DNA of 64,000 nucleotides. Source: Chloroflexota bacterium. Its GTDB lineage: Bacteria > Chloroflexota > Limnocylindria > P2-11E. The translations under genes were made by a program, and so were the position numbers. The stretch lies in NCBI GenBank assembly GCA_005889405.1, contig VBFY01000060.1, forward strand, positions 18,393-82,392, in the 5' to 3' direction. This document shows, in pieces, positions 51,001-60,581 of this stretch (the first letter of the stretch is position 1; every line of letters starts with the position of its first letter). Under the pieces are notes generated by a model. It saw only the letters and a program-made list of their open reading frames with translations, made no database searches and had not been told where the DNA came from.

Positions 51001-51015
51001 CTGTCGGATGCTCCT

Positions 51016-51079
51016 TTTTCCACAGCGGTGGACAACTCTCGGTGGATAGACCCGCGAGCGCGAGAAAATCGGTGGACCA
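51016..51079. promoter_or_regulatory. DnaA-box-like cluster
   Basis: TTTTCCACA, GGTGGACAA, GGTGGATAG, GGTGGACCA. Confidence 0.4.
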
Positions 51080-51189
51080 TCGCGCCGATCCCTTGGGGAT
51101 AGTGTCCTAGGCGGCCCGACCCTTCTCAGTCACCCTTTGGTCCTATAGCGAGCGATCCCCAAGGCGCATTTCATCGGATTCCGGTCCGA

Positions 51190-51218
51190 TTGACACCGAA
51201 CGTATGTTCTAAGATAAC
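51190..51218 (+). promoter_or_regulatory. Promoter with embedded LexA (SOS) box upstream of tandem dnaB
   Basis: TTGACA-N17-GATAAC; GAACGTATGTTC at 51198-51209. Confidence 0.8.
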
Positions 51219-51242
51219 TGCGACCCTGCACCAGGAGGCGGC

Positions 51243-52562
51243 ATGACGCTGGAGGGCACGAACCGGGCGCTTCCCTACGACGAGTCGGCCGAGCAACAGG
51301 TGCTCGGCAGCCTCCTCATCGATCGCGACGCGATCTTCAAGGTCGCGGACCTCCTCGGGAAAGATGACTTCTATCTGGCTCGGCACCAACGCATCTACGG
51401 GACGGTGCAGTCGCTGCTCGAGCGCCGCGAGCGCATCGACCCGCTCACGGTGCAGATCGAGCTGGCGCGCCGCGAGGAGCTCGACCGCGTCGGAGGCCCG
51501 GCCTACCTGCGCGAGCTCACCGAGCTCGTGGCCACAGCGGTCGAGATCGAACGTCACGCCCGCGTCGTGCGCGACCGCGCGATCTTGCGCCGCCTCCTGG
51601 GCGCGGCGACCGCGGTCGCGGCCGACGCGTACGGCGAACCGACGGATATCCCGCTCGCGCTCGATCGCGCCGAGCAGCGCATCTTCGCACTGCGCGACGA
51701 ATCCGCGAATGCTCAGCTCCGACACATCCAGGCGGCCCTGCAGGAGAACTTCGACCACCTCAGTCAGCGGATGGAGCGACCGTACGAAGTGAGCGGCATC
51801 CCGTCGGGCTTCCGCGAGATCGACTTCTACACCGAGGGCTTCTCCGCCGGCGACCTCGTCGTCGTTGCGGCGCGCCCGTCGGTCGGCAAGACGAGCCTGG
51901 GACTCGCGATGGCCTTCAACATGGCGAAGCGCGGCCATCCCACACTCGTCTTCTCGCTCGAGATGGACACCAAGCAGGTCGTGTCTCGCTTCCTCGCGAT
52001 GAATAGCCGGACCGATCTGCTCGCGCTGCGCACCGGCAACGTGTTCGACACGGAGGCCGCGTCTTCGCTCGCAAACCTGCCGATCCTCATCGACGACACG
52101 CCGGGCCTGTCCATCATGGAGCTGCGCACGAAGGCGCGGCGCGCGAGCACGCACGACCGTCTCGAGGTGATCCTCGTCGACTACATCCAGCTCATGCGCA
52201 CCGGCGAGCACGAAGAGAATCGCGTGCAGGAGATCGCGACGATCACGAAGAATCTCAAGTCGCTCGCGCGCGAGCTCAACGTGGTGGTCATCGGTCTTTC
52301 GCAGCTTTCGCGCGCCGCCGGCGATTCAGGTTTGGAGCCGAAGCTCTCGACGCTTCGTGAATCGGGGTCGCTCGAGCAGGACTCAGACGTCGTGCTGATG
52401 CTCTGGCGCGATAAAGAGGAGACCGCCGCAGGCGCGCCCAAGCTCATCCACGGCAGCATCGCGAAGAATCGCAACGGTCCCACCGGCATCTTCTCGCTGC
52501 TCTTCGCGAGCGAGCAGGCGAAGTTCTTCAGCCGGGCCTCGGACGATTCGATGCCGGTATGA
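51243..52562 (+). CDS. dnaB: Replicative DNA helicase DnaB, copy 1
   Basis: RPSVGKTSLGLAMA; VILVDYIQLM; SQLSRAAGD..STLRESGSLEQDSDVVLMLWRD; AGGAGG RBS. Confidence 0.95.
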   Translation: MTLEGTNRALPYDESAEQQVLGSLLIDRDAIFKVADLLGKDDFYLARHQRIYGTVQSLLERRERIDPLTVQIELARREELDRVGGPAYLRELTELVATAVEIERHARVVRDRAILRRLLGAATAVAADAYGEPTDIPLALDRAEQRIFALRDESANAQLRHIQAALQENFDHLSQRMERPYEVSGIPSGFREIDFYTEGFSAGDLVVVAARPSVGKTSLGLAMAFNMAKRGHPTLVFSLEMDTKQVVSRFLAMNSRTDLLALRTGNVFDTEAASSLANLPILIDDTPGLSIMELRTKARRASTHDRLEVILVDYIQLMRTGEHEENRVQEIATITKNLKSLARELNVVVIGLSQLSRAAGDSGLEPKLSTLRESGSLEQDSDVVLMLWRDKEETAAGAPKLIHGSIAKNRNGPTGIFSLLFASEQAKFFSRASDDSMPV

Positions 52563-53899
52563 CGGTCGAATACGGACTCGAACGCGGCACACCCAAGCCG
52601 CCACCCGAGAACCCCGAGGCCGAGGCCTCCCTCCTCGGCGCGGTCCTCATCGATCCGGCGATCTACGAGGGCATCGTGCGTGGACGCATCGCGCCTGCGT
52701 CGCTCTCGCGCGAGCAGCATCGCCTGATCCTCGGCGCGATCGAGCGCGTCGCGGAGCGCGGCGAGGCCCTGGGTTTTCAGACCGTGCAGACCGAGCTCGC
52801 GGCCCGCAGCGAGCTCGATGAGATCGGCGGCGCGCAGTTCCTCGTCGGCCTCATGCAGAACGTGCCGACGGTCGCGCACGCCGAGTCGTACGCCGCGATC
52901 GTCGAGCGCACGGCGCTCCTGCGCCGCCTCATCCAGGCCGCCAACGAGATCGCCCATCTCGCGCTGACCCGCGAGGACGCCGAGAGCGCCGTCAGCGACG
53001 CACAGGAGCTCCTCTTCGCGGTCAGCGAGTCGAGCCTGCATCGCGATGTCGTCCCCCTCGAGATCGCGCTGCGCCGTTTCGCCGACCAGATCACCGCGCG
53101 CGGCGACGACCAGCGGCAGGGCGTGCCCACCGGCTTCGAGCATCTCGACGCGAAGACCGGAGGCTTCCAGCCGTCCGACCTCATCATCGTCGGTGGGCGC
53201 CCAGGCCTCGGAAAGACGAGCCTCGCGCTGAACATCGTCTGGCACGCCGCGGTCGCAGCGCACAAGACCTGCGCGGTGTTCTCGCTCGAGATGACCGAGC
53301 TCCAGGTCGTGCAGCGGCTGATCTCGATGACCGCTGAGATCGACGGAAACCGCATGCGCCGCGGTCGGCTCTCGGAGAAGGAATTCGAGTCGATCAACTC
53401 CGCGTCGAACCAGCTGCAGCGCGCGCCGATCTTCATCGAGGAGTCGAGCCGTCTCACGGTGACTGACATCCTTGCGAAATCGCGGCGGCTCCAAGCCGAT
53501 CGTGGCCTGGACATGGTCGTCGTCGACTACCTGCAGCTCATCGAAGGTGTGGGCAATGACGAGGGCCGGGTGCAAGAGGTGGCGGTCATCACCCGAGCGC
53601 TGAAATCGATCGCGCGCGAGCTGGAGGTGCCTCTCGTTGCGCTCTCGCAGCTGTCGCGTCAGATCGAGACACGCGGCACCGAGCCGATGCTGTCTGACCT
53701 CCGGGAGAGCGGAGCGATTGAGGCCGACGCCGACCTCGTTCTGTTCCTCTGGCAGAAGGACCGCAAGGACCGCGACGAAAGCGTGGTGCGCCTGAAACTG
53801 GCGAAGCACCGCAACGGCCCGACCGGCGACTTCGACCTGCACTTCCAGTCCGAGCTGACGCGTTTCCGCGATTTGGGCGAGACTCGGGCGGACATCTGA
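52559..53899 (+). CDS. dnaB: Replicative DNA helicase DnaB, copy 2
   Basis: GRPGLGKTSLALNI; MVVVDYLQLIEG; SQLSRQIETRG..SDLRESGAIEADADLVLFLWQKDR; ATGA overlap with copy 1. Confidence 0.95.
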   Translation: MTVEYGLERGTPKPPPENPEAEASLLGAVLIDPAIYEGIVRGRIAPASLSREQHRLILGAIERVAERGEALGFQTVQTELAARSELDEIGGAQFLVGLMQNVPTVAHAESYAAIVERTALLRRLIQAANEIAHLALTREDAESAVSDAQELLFAVSESSLHRDVVPLEIALRRFADQITARGDDQRQGVPTGFEHLDAKTGGFQPSDLIIVGGRPGLGKTSLALNIVWHAAVAAHKTCAVFSLEMTELQVVQRLISMTAEIDGNRMRRGRLSEKEFESINSASNQLQRAPIFIEESSRLTVTDILAKSRRLQADRGLDMVVVDYLQLIEGVGNDEGRVQEVAVITRALKSIARELEVPLVALSQLSRQIETRGTEPMLSDLRESGAIEADADLVLFLWQKDRKDRDESVVRLKLAKHRNGPTGDFDLHFQSELTRFRDLGETRADI

Positions 53900-56459: not shown

Positions 56460-56488
56460 TTGACAGGTGAACATCTGTTCGGTATGGT
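56460..56488 (+). promoter_or_regulatory. lexA promoter with embedded LexA box
   Basis: TTGACA-N17-TATGGT; GAACATCTGTTC at 56469-56480. Confidence 0.88.
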
Positions 56489-56494
56489 CCAAGC

Positions 56495-57103
56495 GTGACG
56501 AAGCAGGACCAGCAGCGCGCCGAGCGCATCTTGGCCTTCATCCGCGAGCGCATCGCGGAGCGGGGCTACCCGCCGACGGTGCGGGAGATCGCCGAGGCCG
56601 TCGGGCTCGCCTCGACGTCGGCGGTCCACCACCACCTCACCAAGCTCGAGAAGGAGGGCCGTCTCACCAAGGACGCCACGCGTTCGCGCGCCCTCTCGAT
56701 CCCCGGCTCCTTTGGCGGTCGCGTCGTCTCCGCGCCGATCATCGGCGAGATCGCCGCCGGTGAGCCCATCTATGCGATGGAAGACAAGACGGAGACGCTC
56801 TCCATCCCCGGCGAGCTCGCGGGTCGCGGTCGCGACACCTTCGTGCTACGCGTCCGTGGCAAGTCGATGATCGATGACCACATCGACGACGGCGACTACG
56901 TCGTCGTGCAACAGCAGAACACCGCCCGGGACGGCGACATCATCGTCGCGCTCCTCGAAGACAACCGCGCGACGCTGAAGCGCTTCTTCAAGGAGAAGGA
57001 TCGCGTACGACTGCAGCCCGCCAACGGCGCGATGCAGCCGATCTACACGCGCGACATCCAGATCCAAGGCAAAGTCATCGGGGTCATTCGCCGGCTGGCC
57101 TAA
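56495..57103 (+). CDS. lexA: SOS repressor LexA
   Basis: N-term wHTH RGYPPTVREIAEAVGLASTSAVHHHL; GEIAAGEPI cleavage site; RGKSM catalytic Ser; ATLKRF Lys. Confidence 0.97.
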   Translation: MTKQDQQRAERILAFIRERIAERGYPPTVREIAEAVGLASTSAVHHHLTKLEKEGRLTKDATRSRALSIPGSFGGRVVSAPIIGEIAAGEPIYAMEDKTETLSIPGELAGRGRDTFVLRVRGKSMIDDHIDDGDYVVVQQQNTARDGDIIVALLEDNRATLKRFFKEKDRVRLQPANGAMQPIYTRDIQIQGKVIGVIRRLA

Positions 57104-57112
57104 CCTCTGGCG

Positions 57113-58225
57113 ATGCCCGCACAGCCCGATGTTCCCGTCATCACGCTTCGCGAACTCAACCGCGCGCTGCTCGCGCGTCAGATGCTCCTCACTCGACAGC
57201 GCGTCGGCGTCGTCGATGCGATCGAGCGCCTCGCCTGTCTTCAGGGCCAGTGGGCGCCATCACCGTACGTCGCCCTCTGGACGCGGCTCGCGGGTTTCAG
57301 GCGCGACGACCTGACCGGACCGATCGACAAGGGCCTCGTGATCAAGGCGACGCTCATGCGCGCGACCCTGCACCTCGTCAGCGCGAAGGAGTACGGGGCG
57401 TATGCGCTTGCGACCCTCGATGGACGCTTCGCCGCGTGGCGGCCGCCGGGCGGACCGGATCTCGCGGCGCTCAAGGACATCCACGACAAGGTCTTCACGT
57501 TCGCGGCGAAGACGCCTCGCACGCGCGAAGAGATCCGTGAGTTCATCGCGCGAGACGCACCGAAGGACGAGCGCCTTCGCAACTGGTATCTCTTCGCGGC
57601 CGTCACAGCGAGTGGGCTCATCTGGGAGAAGAGCGGCGCGCACTGGGAATACCGGCAGCTGGCCCGATTCGTCGCGCCGCCGGCGAAGCTGCGCAGAGCC
57701 CCGAAGCCCGACGCGGCATTCGACCTCGTTGCGCGCCGCTACCTCGGGGCCTTCGGTCCGTCGACCGTCGGCGATCTCGCGAACTGGACCGGCTGCCGCG
57801 TGCCGCCGCTGCGTGAGGCGCTCACTCGGATCAAGGACATCCGGCGGTTCCGCGACGAGCGTGGACGCGACCTGTTCGACCTCGCGAAGGCGCCGCGTCC
57901 ACCGGCCGACACGGTCGCGCCCGCGCGTTTCCTGGCCCGCTTCGATGCGGCGATCCTCGGCCACGATGCGGCCGAGCGGACGCGGATCCTGCCGGCCGCG
58001 TACAAGAAGCAGGTGATCTTCTCGGCCGAGGTCTGGACGACGTTCCTCGTCGACGGCTTCGTCGCCGGTCGGTGGAAGATCGCGGCCACGCCACGGCAGG
58101 CGATGCTCGAGCTCTTGCCGTTCACGACGCTCGCGAAGCGCGACAAGGCGGCGCTGATCGACGAAGGCGAGCGGCTGGTGCGCTTCTATTACCCGCAAGC
58201 GAAAACGCATGGGGTGAAGGCGTGA
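57113..58225 (+). CDS. AlkZ/YcaQ-superfamily winged-helix DNA glycosylase-like protein, copy 1 (QGQ)
   Basis: LRELNRALLARQMLL..RLACLQGQWAPSPYVALWTRL; RATLHLVSAKEY. Confidence 0.82.
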   Translation: MPAQPDVPVITLRELNRALLARQMLLTRQRVGVVDAIERLACLQGQWAPSPYVALWTRLAGFRRDDLTGPIDKGLVIKATLMRATLHLVSAKEYGAYALATLDGRFAAWRPPGGPDLAALKDIHDKVFTFAAKTPRTREEIREFIARDAPKDERLRNWYLFAAVTASGLIWEKSGAHWEYRQLARFVAPPAKLRRAPKPDAAFDLVARRYLGAFGPSTVGDLANWTGCRVPPLREALTRIKDIRRFRDERGRDLFDLAKAPRPPADTVAPARFLARFDAAILGHDAAERTRILPAAYKKQVIFSAEVWTTFLVDGFVAGRWKIAATPRQAMLELLPFTTLAKRDKAALIDEGERLVRFYYPQAKTHGVKA

Positions 58226-59355
58226 GCCCGCGCCGGGCCGCCGATGCGCCGGAGCTCACGCTGCGCGAGCTCAACCGCGCGACATTGGCGCGCCAGATGC
58301 TCCTCGAGCGCGCGTCACTGTCGGTCGTGACCGCGATCGAGCGCCTCGCGGCTCTGCAAGCGCAGTGGGCGCCGTCCCCATATCTCGCGCTCTGGTCGCG
58401 CCTGAGGAACTTCGAGCGCGAGAGCCTGTGGAGCGCGATCGAGAAGACGCACACCGTCATACGCGCCCGGCTGATGCGCGGCACGCTTCACCTGGTGAGC
58501 GCGCGCGACTTCTTCGCGTACGCGGTCGCGACCCAGGATCTGCAGCGCGGCGCGTGGAACCGACTTCAGGTCGGCCAGGGCGTCGATCCCAAGGCGGTCG
58601 CGAAGCTTGCGGTCGCGTTCGCGCGAGAACCACGTCTGAAAGAGCAGGTCGTCGCGCACCTGACCGAGCGCCTCGGCTCGTTCGGCGGTCCGTACAAATG
58701 GCTCATCTGGCGGTTCGTGAGTGCGCATGCGGATCTCGTGTCCGCTCCGCCGGGCGGCCACTGGGCGCACGGCGGCACGAACGCACCGTATGTCGCGGCA
58801 CGCCACTGGATCGGCGGTGGCTCGCGCCCGTCAGAGCAGGTCGCGCTGCGGCTCCTCATCCGCCGGTATCTCGCGGCGTTCGGGCCCGCGAGCCTCGCGG
58901 ATATCGCACAGTTCGCGGGACAGGTCCCTCCACGCATCCGACCCGTCCTCGAGAAGCTCGCGCCGTCACTGAAGCGTTTCTCCGACGAGCGGGGTCACGT
59001 CCTCTTCGACTTGCCGCACGCGCCGCGACCGACCGCGGACACGACTGCGCCGGTGCGCTTTCTTCCTCGATATGACGAGCTGCTCATCGGCTACGAGCAT
59101 CGCGACCGCGTCATCGCCGCGAGACATCGTTCCGCCGTCTATTCGAAGAACGCGATCATCGAAGCGGTCTTCCTCGTGGACGGCTGGGCCGCCGGCACCT
59201 GGGCGCTCACGACGACGAAGTCCGACTCGGTCGTGCGCATCCGTCCCTTCGGGAAGCTCGGTCGTGCGGAACGCGCCGCGGCCGTGGAAGAAGGCGAGGC
59301 GCTGGCGCGCTTCATGGCGCCCGAGGCGAAGACGCATGGGGCGCGCGTCGGATGA
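58222..59355 (+). CDS. AlkZ/YcaQ-superfamily winged-helix DNA glycosylase-like protein, copy 2 (QAQ)
   Basis: LRELNRATLARQMLL..RLAALQAQWAPSPYLALWSRL; GTG start, GTGA overlap. Confidence 0.82.
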   Translation: MSPRRAADAPELTLRELNRATLARQMLLERASLSVVTAIERLAALQAQWAPSPYLALWSRLRNFERESLWSAIEKTHTVIRARLMRGTLHLVSARDFFAYAVATQDLQRGAWNRLQVGQGVDPKAVAKLAVAFAREPRLKEQVVAHLTERLGSFGGPYKWLIWRFVSAHADLVSAPPGGHWAHGGTNAPYVAARHWIGGGSRPSEQVALRLLIRRYLAAFGPASLADIAQFAGQVPPRIRPVLEKLAPSLKRFSDERGHVLFDLPHAPRPTADTTAPVRFLPRYDELLIGYEHRDRVIAARHRSAVYSKNAIIEAVFLVDGWAAGTWALTTTKSDSVVRIRPFGKLGRAERAAAVEEGEALARFMAPEAKTHGARVG

Positions 59356-60581
59356 GCGTCATCGTGCCCGAGCGCCGCGCGATCCTGCACTGCGACCTCG
59401 ACGCCTTCTACGCGTCGGTCGAGCAGCGCGATCATCCCGAATACCGCGGCAAGCCCGTGATAGTCGGCGGCGGACCGAACGACCGCGGCGTCGTCGCCGC
59501 GGCTTCCTACGAGGCACGCGTCTTCGGCGTCCACTCGGCGATGCCCCTCCAGACCGCGGGCCGGCTGTGCCCCGACGGTATCTTCGTTCCGGGTGACGGG
59601 CAGAAGTACGAGGAAGCGTCCGACGCCGTCATGGCGCTCTTTGCCGAGCGGACCCCGCTGGTGGAGCCGATCTCGCTCGATGAAGCGTTCCTAGACGTAA
59701 CGGCGACCGAGCATCTGTTCGGCGGAGCGGAGAACATCGCGAGGGAGCTGAAACGCGATGTACGCGAGCAGCTCGGTCTCGTGCTGTCCGTCGGGGTTGC
59801 CACGAACAAGCTCTGCGCGAAGATCGGGTCGGACCTGCGCAAGCCGGACGGGCTGGTCATCGTCCCCGCGGGCGGCGAGGAGGCGTTCCTCGCGCCACTC
59901 GAGCTCGGCCGGCTGTGGGGCGTCGGACCGAAGACGCGCGAGGTCCTCGAGGGCTGGGGACTCCGTACGATCGCCGAGCTCGCCGCGATGGACGTGAGCG
60001 TGCTCGAGACACGGCTCGGCGAGCACGGGCGTCACATCTGGGAGCGCGCGCATGGCATCGACGAAGGCGTGGTCGTGGGCGACGGCAGGACCCCGAAATC
60101 GGTCGGGCACTCGCACACGTTCGATCGCAACACGCTCGACCCCGCGACGATCGAATCCATGCTCCTGGCCCTCTCCGAGGGCGTCGGACGCAGGCTCCGC
60201 GGTCAACAGCTCCGCGGTCGCACCATCACACTGCATCTGCGCGTCGCGCCCTTCGAGACGCGCACGCGGCAGCGCACGCTCGCCGAGCCGACGGACGACG
60301 ATCTGAGGATCTTCAGCACCGCGCGTCAGTTGCTGCGCGACGCGCTGGCGGAAGACCGTCGCAGTGGTCGGACCAGTCCGGTGCGGCTGGTCGGGGTCAC
60401 CGCTTCCGGGATCGAGATCGGACGGCAGATGGGGCTCTTCGATCACGTGCGCACGACGCGACTCAACGCCGCGCTTGATGCCGTGCGTGAGAAGTTCGGC
60501 GACACGGCGCTCGACCGCGCGAGCGCGCGTCTGCGGGAACGGCGTCGTTTCTCGGATCGCAGGACGAAGAAATCGACATGA
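59352..60581 (+). CDS. dinB: DNA polymerase IV (Y family)
   Basis: ILHCDLDAFYASVEQRDHPEYRGKPVIVGG; PISLDEAFLDVT; QMGLF clamp-binding-like motif. Confidence 0.95.
   Translation: MSVIVPERRAILHCDLDAFYASVEQRDHPEYRGKPVIVGGGPNDRGVVAAASYEARVFGVHSAMPLQTAGRLCPDGIFVPGDGQKYEEASDAVMALFAERTPLVEPISLDEAFLDVTATEHLFGGAENIARELKRDVREQLGLVLSVGVATNKLCAKIGSDLRKPDGLVIVPAGGEEAFLAPLELGRLWGVGPKTREVLEGWGLRTIAELAAMDVSVLETRLGEHGRHIWERAHGIDEGVVVGDGRTPKSVGHSHTFDRNTLDPATIESMLLALSEGVGRRLRGQQLRGRTITLHLRVAPFETRTRQRTLAEPTDDDLRIFSTARQLLRDALAEDRRSGRTSPVRLVGVTASGIEIGRQMGLFDHVRTTRLNAALDAVREKFGDTALDRASARLRERRRFSDRRTKKST

Follow-up and report, generated by a model that had tools for sequence, protein, structure and literature searches.

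Tandem DnaB paralogs behind a predicted LexA box across an order of Chloroflexota

The replicative helicase DnaB is a textbook homohexamer, normally encoded once and constitutively expressed. This locus raises the question of what it means when two full-length dnaB genes stand in tandem behind a predicted LexA box. The locus lies in a 64,000-nucleotide stretch of Chloroflexota DNA (the window), which lies on contig C47 of a 3.05-Mb metagenome-assembled genome (G000); every genome compared here is a metagenome assembly. The order sample contains 29 genomes, 28 from the family and one from a sister family (G028), and the named relatives include the Chloroflexi MAGs CF_147, CF_143, CF_4, UBA4730, and NC_groundwater_608. 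Taken together, the comparisons indicate that the locus is probably a LexA-repressed operon encoding the only replicative helicase of the order, in the form of two obligately co-retained DnaB paralogs.

The gene pair and its products

The features of the locus, with the basis for each, are:

51190–51195, + strand: TTGACA, −35-like element (sequence)
51198–51209, + strand: predicted LexA box GAACGTATGTTC of dnaB1 (sequence; a perfect box near dnaB1 in 29/29 order genomes)
51213–51218, + strand: GATAAC, weak −10-like element (sequence)
51233–51238, + strand: AGGAGG, dnaB1 ribosome-binding site (sequence)
51243–52562, + strand: dnaB1, replicative helicase paralog 1, 439 aa (domain and family matches)
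52559–52562, + strand: ATGA stop-start overlap of dnaB1 and dnaB2 (sequence; suggests translational coupling)
52559–53899, + strand: dnaB2, replicative helicase paralog 2, 446 aa (domain and family matches)
56460–56465, + strand: TTGACA ahead of lexA (sequence)
56469–56480, + strand: predicted LexA box GAACATCTGTTC of lexA (3 nt past TTGACA; 30/30 class genomes)
56495–57103, + strand: lexA, GTG start, 202 aa (LexA HTH and S24 peptidase domain)

A sequence-only reading of this DNA had described two full-length dnaB open reading frames of 439 and 446 aa that overlap by ATGA. The coordinates bear this out, and both products carry the N-terminal (PF00772) and C-terminal (PF03796) DnaB domains and pass the curated cut-off of the NCBIfam DnaB family TIGR00665 (385.25 bits), with scores of 423.5 bits for DnaB1 and 453.0 bits for DnaB2. 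Both also match the solved structure of Geobacillus stearothermophilus DnaB (PDB 2r6a / 4esv; E = 7e-94 for DnaB1 and 2e-98 for DnaB2). Judged from sequence, DnaB1 and DnaB2 are ordinary members of the DnaB family, and their fold is settled.

Like Bst DnaB (TIGR00665), each paralog is a full NTD-linker-CTD protein with all ATPase and finger residues. The positions checked were the Walker A Lys, the catalytic Glu, the Walker B Asp, Gln362, and the Lys418/Arg420 fingers; K216, E241, D320, Q362, K418, and R420 (Bst numbering) are invariant among 29 DnaB1 and 25 DnaB2 sequences. The ratio dN/dS is ~0.04–0.08 for dnaB1 and 0.04–0.05 for dnaB2, and both paralogs are under strong purifying selection. 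The earlier impression that neither copy looks dead therefore holds, on the invariance of these residues and on the selection acting on both genes. Unlike Bst DnaB, DnaB1 is without ~6 residues after LRTG.

In G000, dnaB1 and dnaB2 are the sole DnaB genes, a third PF03796 match lying barely above cut-off at 27.1 bits. The relatives in the order likewise hold the DnaB pair and no further DnaB. Since the genome contains no other DnaB, the two genes together must provide the normal replicative helicase, and the term “alternative helicase” used in the sequence-only reading was wrong. A single DciA gene and a single DnaG gene were found in the genome, which would make loader and primase common to both helicases.

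The two paralogs are retained together throughout the order (29 genomes, with some dnaB2 partial). dnaB2 is complete in 25 order genomes, has an internal deletion in G023, and is cut by a contig end in G005, G019, and G027. The 4-nt overlap of dnaB1 and dnaB2 is present in 28/28 family genomes, as ATGA in 26 and GTGA in 2; in the sister-family genome, a small ORF separates the two genes, which still have one box. The G023 deletion is an in-frame gap of ~40 aa in DnaB2 that includes the arginine finger, and is either real or an assembly fault.

Inteins occur at the RE|SG site of 7 DnaB1 and 2 DnaB2 genes, with the Cys start and His-Asn|Ser end intact. Inteins prefer conserved sites in essential proteins, and their presence in both paralogs thus fits two working helicases. 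The intein-bearing genomes are G001, G018, G019, G005, G012, G025, G015, G002, and G028. One DnaB1 intein is a mini-intein of about 172 aa, and one DnaB2 intein is shortened (G028). At this site, a comparable gap is seen in the lone DnaB of two class relatives, G032 and G052.

Age and divergence of the paralogs

Phylogeny and synteny, which the sequence-only reading had proposed as checks, give DnaB1 and DnaB2 as two fully supported clades, with dnaB2 following dnaB1 across the order. The sister-family genome branches first in both clades, which places the origin of both paralogs before the family split. Loss or inactivation of one copy in relatives had been named as an observation that would count against the pair; the pair is order-wide, and the proposal stands. 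A transient duplication is ruled out by the same breadth and age. An origin from a phage or genomic island was rejected as well, as no close viral relative was found: the best viral identity is 37% for DnaB2, and none was found for DnaB1.

These data bear on the reading that one copy is a recent duplicate, a phage-derived gene, or a decaying pseudogene without function. Losses of ancestrally invariant residues are more numerous in DnaB2 than in DnaB1 (27 vs 12), and the G023 protein without ~40 aa and its arginine finger could be taken for decay. Against this stand the order-wide presence of both copies, each as one fully supported clade with the sister family first, the strong purifying selection, and the distance of the viral relatives. 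The conservation and selection data refute this reading, which is scarcely credible.

The paralogs have diverged far from each other and from their relatives. Unlike the case of Bst DnaB, there are two paralogs with 35% mutual identity, and each is more diverged than its single-copy relatives: identity to Bst DnaB is 41% for each paralog vs 50% for single-copy DnaBs of the class. The stems of the two clades are both long (0.81 and 1.03 changes per site), and present rates are equal (slope 0.97, r 0.95 over 276 genome pairs). The long stems, the equal identity to outside DnaBs, and the equal rates indicate that neither copy stayed as the conservative ancestor. DnaB1, DnaB2, and the class DnaBs group together with support of 84/96. 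Within this group, the pairing of DnaB1 with DnaB2 has support of 45/12, and a topology that places DnaB1 with the class DnaBs is not rejected (AU p 0.505).

How the two proteins assemble is a separate matter. A mixed DnaB1/DnaB2 ring would explain the co-retention, the coupling, and the equal divergence. Ancestrally invariant residues have been lost at 12 positions only in DnaB1 and at 27 only in DnaB2, a count that leaves out Bst positions 381–382 (stray residues from extein joining in intein-bearing rows). Complementary loss between the paralogs gave no signal, with 3 double losses vs 3.3 expected, so that sequence support for a mixed ring consists of the co-retention, coupling, and equal divergence themselves. 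A mixed ring comes close to an even prospect, and is somewhat likelier than two separate homohexamers.

Separate homohexamers would imply a division of labour, in which one paralog serves replication from oriC and the other restart or repair, and the shared operon sets their joint level. The full set of catalytic and finger residues in both proteins means that each could work alone, their 35% mutual identity could prevent mixing, and each has lost ancestral residues that the other keeps. A helicase dedicated to oriC would be expected to stay conservative, which fits poorly with two long stems and equal outside identity, and for both helicases together only one DciA gene and one DnaG gene were found. 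Division of labour is accordingly a possible arrangement, on the doubtful side.

The predicted LexA box and its setting

Upstream of dnaB1, the sequence reads TTGACA-CC-GAACGTATGTTC followed by GATAAC, with a spacer of 17 nt between TTGACA and GATAAC. The promoter proposed from sequence, with the box 2 nt after the −35 element, agrees with the DNA, although its GATAAC element is weak and was missed by a consensus scan. GAACGTATGTTC is a perfect GAAC-N4-GTTC palindrome 33 nt before the dnaB1 ATG. The window contains 2 such boxes vs 0.78 expected, and 16/100 shuffles reach 2; the box count inside the window is by itself not beyond chance. Genome-wide, exact boxes are mildly enriched, with 32 vs 21 in the reversed control. 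From this density (about 32 in 3.05 Mb), the chance of a box in a given 60-bp stretch is ~6e-4.

Comparison among genomes carries more of the argument. A perfect GAAC-N4-GTTC lies near and upstream of dnaB1, with dnaB2 next, in 29/29 order genomes; absence of the box from close relatives had been named in the sequence-only reading as grounds for refutation, and the opposite was found. The N4 core takes 19 forms among the 29, and these varied cores, with diverged surroundings, suggest that the palindrome itself is under selection. Only some of the relatives have TTGACA beside the box, and the −35 hexamer is thus not conserved. In the sister-family genome, the box appears distant from the dnaB1 start (−134), which is explained by an upstream in-frame dnaB1 ATG 14 nt past the box start. 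No perfect box was present upstream of dnaB in the 28 class relatives (sister families) with that region checked, and among the loci of named relatives the box occurs in 9/9 inside the order and 0/71 outside. A chance box is ruled out by its position, by conservation in 29/29 order genomes, and by 0/28 in class relatives.

The lexA gene lies 5.25 kb downstream of the dnaB1 start. Its promoter in the window, TTGACA-GGT-GAACATCTGTTC, has the like layout that had been claimed for it, with the box 3 nt after the −35 element, and across the class a GAAC-N4-GTTC box stands before lexA in 30/30 of the genomes tested. Several other G000 genes have the box in front of them as well: uvrB, an Rv2578c-like radical SAM gene, a DEAD-box helicase gene, an HNH-like gene, and an ImuA-like gene, the last with a Y-family polymerase-like gene behind it. 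No box lies within 300 bp before recA of G000, even allowing one mismatch, and the SOS circuit may therefore be atypical.

These genes help to weigh the view that the palindrome arose by chance or binds some other regulator. The near-background number of exact boxes genome-wide speaks for that view; the 29/29 boxes at dnaB1, the 30/30 at lexA, and the boxes before uvrB and the imuA-like gene speak against it and make it highly improbable. LexA control of the order's only replicative helicase genes is well supported by comparison as a prediction. Likewise, the damage-inducible helicase expression suggested in the sequence-only reading gains strong comparative support from the 29/29 box at dnaB1, the lexA box across the class, and the boxed genes of SOS type.

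Several neighbours and box-bearing genes were recorded alongside. From 56495 to 60581 on the same strand, lexA, two tandem AlkZ-like DNA glycosylases, and DNA polymerase IV (dinB) are close-packed or overlapping; lexA with the downstream glycosylases and DinB (57113–60581) is an apparent LexA-headed repair operon. The DEAD-box helicase gene (G000:C15; TIGR03817-like, with an HRQ1-type winged helix) has two boxes 32 bp apart at its start. At G000:C70:72439, a box lies 16 nt before a 306-aa ORF with two HNH-like zinc/His motifs and no NCBIfam match.

Elsewhere in the class, the position of lexA suggests that dnaB may have been linked to the SOS regulator before it was duplicated. In one sister family (f3), lexA lies upstream of the single dnaB on the same strand in 13/13 genomes, and directly adjacent in 12; ten measured gaps span 146–350 nt, and no terminator was found in the one gap scanned. 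In another family (f4), lexA is 1–2 kb from dnaB and divergent, and in the order genomes it is downstream of dnaB2, a few kb away on the same strand. On this account, dnaB once lay directly behind lexA, and the box kept control after the two genes separated. The f3 gap is long for an operon, however, and could hold a separate dnaB promoter, and the f4 dnaB has neither a box nor a lexA operon. This account is plausible but falls somewhat short of an even chance; it concerns the origin of the arrangement and is compatible with the main explanation, a LexA-repressed operon for the order's helicase pair. In f3, lexA is preceded by TTGACA and a LexA box, and lexA-dnaB is a possible SOS-controlled operon.

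A replication origin at the dnaB locus was also considered and rejected: dnaA lies on another contig (C17), where two TTATCCACA sites accompany it, and the 2.6 kb upstream of dnaB contain few near-consensus DnaA boxes (3). Upstream of dnaB1, at 51015–51080, are the TCCAC/GTGGA elements TTTTCCACA, GGTGGACAAC, GGTGGATAG, and AATCGGTGGACC. Elements like TCCAC/GTGGA are also seen in the f3 lexA-dnaB gap and are possibly DnaA-related sites.

Proposed mechanism and relation to known systems

In the proposed mechanism, LexA bound at 51198–51209 would cover the promoter and hold the operon at a basal level. This basal level would suffice for normal replication, because no other dnaB exists. RecA on single-stranded DNA would trigger LexA cleavage, upon which DnaB1 and DnaB2 would rise with UvrB, the ImuA-like protein, and LexA. 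The induced supply of helicase would permit reloading at stalled or broken forks, and the 4-nt overlap would couple translation and give a fixed DnaB1:DnaB2 ratio. The complete scheme, in which the order uses a two-component mixed DnaB1/DnaB2 ring made at a fixed ratio from an SOS-repressed operon, is put forward tentatively and is more doubtful than the operon itself.

The closest precedent is the dnaB of Mycobacterium tuberculosis, which has a putative SOS box and whose expression goes up after mitomycin C in a recA/pafBC-depleted strain (PMC8151990). As here, a candidate box of the Gram-positive type lies at the replicative helicase gene. In M. tuberculosis, however, the effect is weak and partly PafBC-dependent and dnaB is single (PMC8151990), whereas here a perfect box is found order-wide at a tandem pair. 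In a literature search for LexA-controlled or tandem dnaB, the M. tuberculosis case alone turned up; the literature covered, in which subscription journals are thinly represented, yielded no account of a conserved tandem DnaB pair.

The LexA regulons of Streptomyces venezuelae, Clostridioides difficile, and Leptospira interrogans are likewise LexA-centred damage responses (PMC9380542, PMC4234289, PMC3789691). The boxes of S. venezuelae and C. difficile are of the GAAC-N4-GTTC type, as here, and dnaB is not mentioned in the papers on these two regulons (PMC9380542, PMC4234289). Leptospira dnaB is without a box and is not induced, at 0.61-fold after irradiation (PMC3789691). The eukaryotic Mcm2-7 complex offers a functional analogy only, as a set of co-retained ring-helicase paralogs replacing a homohexamer. 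Mcm2-7 belongs to an unrelated superfamily (AAA+) and is a hetero-oligomer, whereas a mixed DnaB assembly in this order is only hypothetical.

An order with a tandem, LexA-boxed, co-retained dnaB pair breaks both the single-copy and the constitutive expectations. It raises the question of whether a cell can afford SOS repression of an essential fork motor, and what it would gain by this after damage. It also raises the question of whether bacteria have arrived at a mixed replicative helicase ring, as eukaryotes have with another helicase family. If true, bacteria would possess a hetero-oligomeric replicative helicase, and the DNA-damage response would determine how much of it is made.
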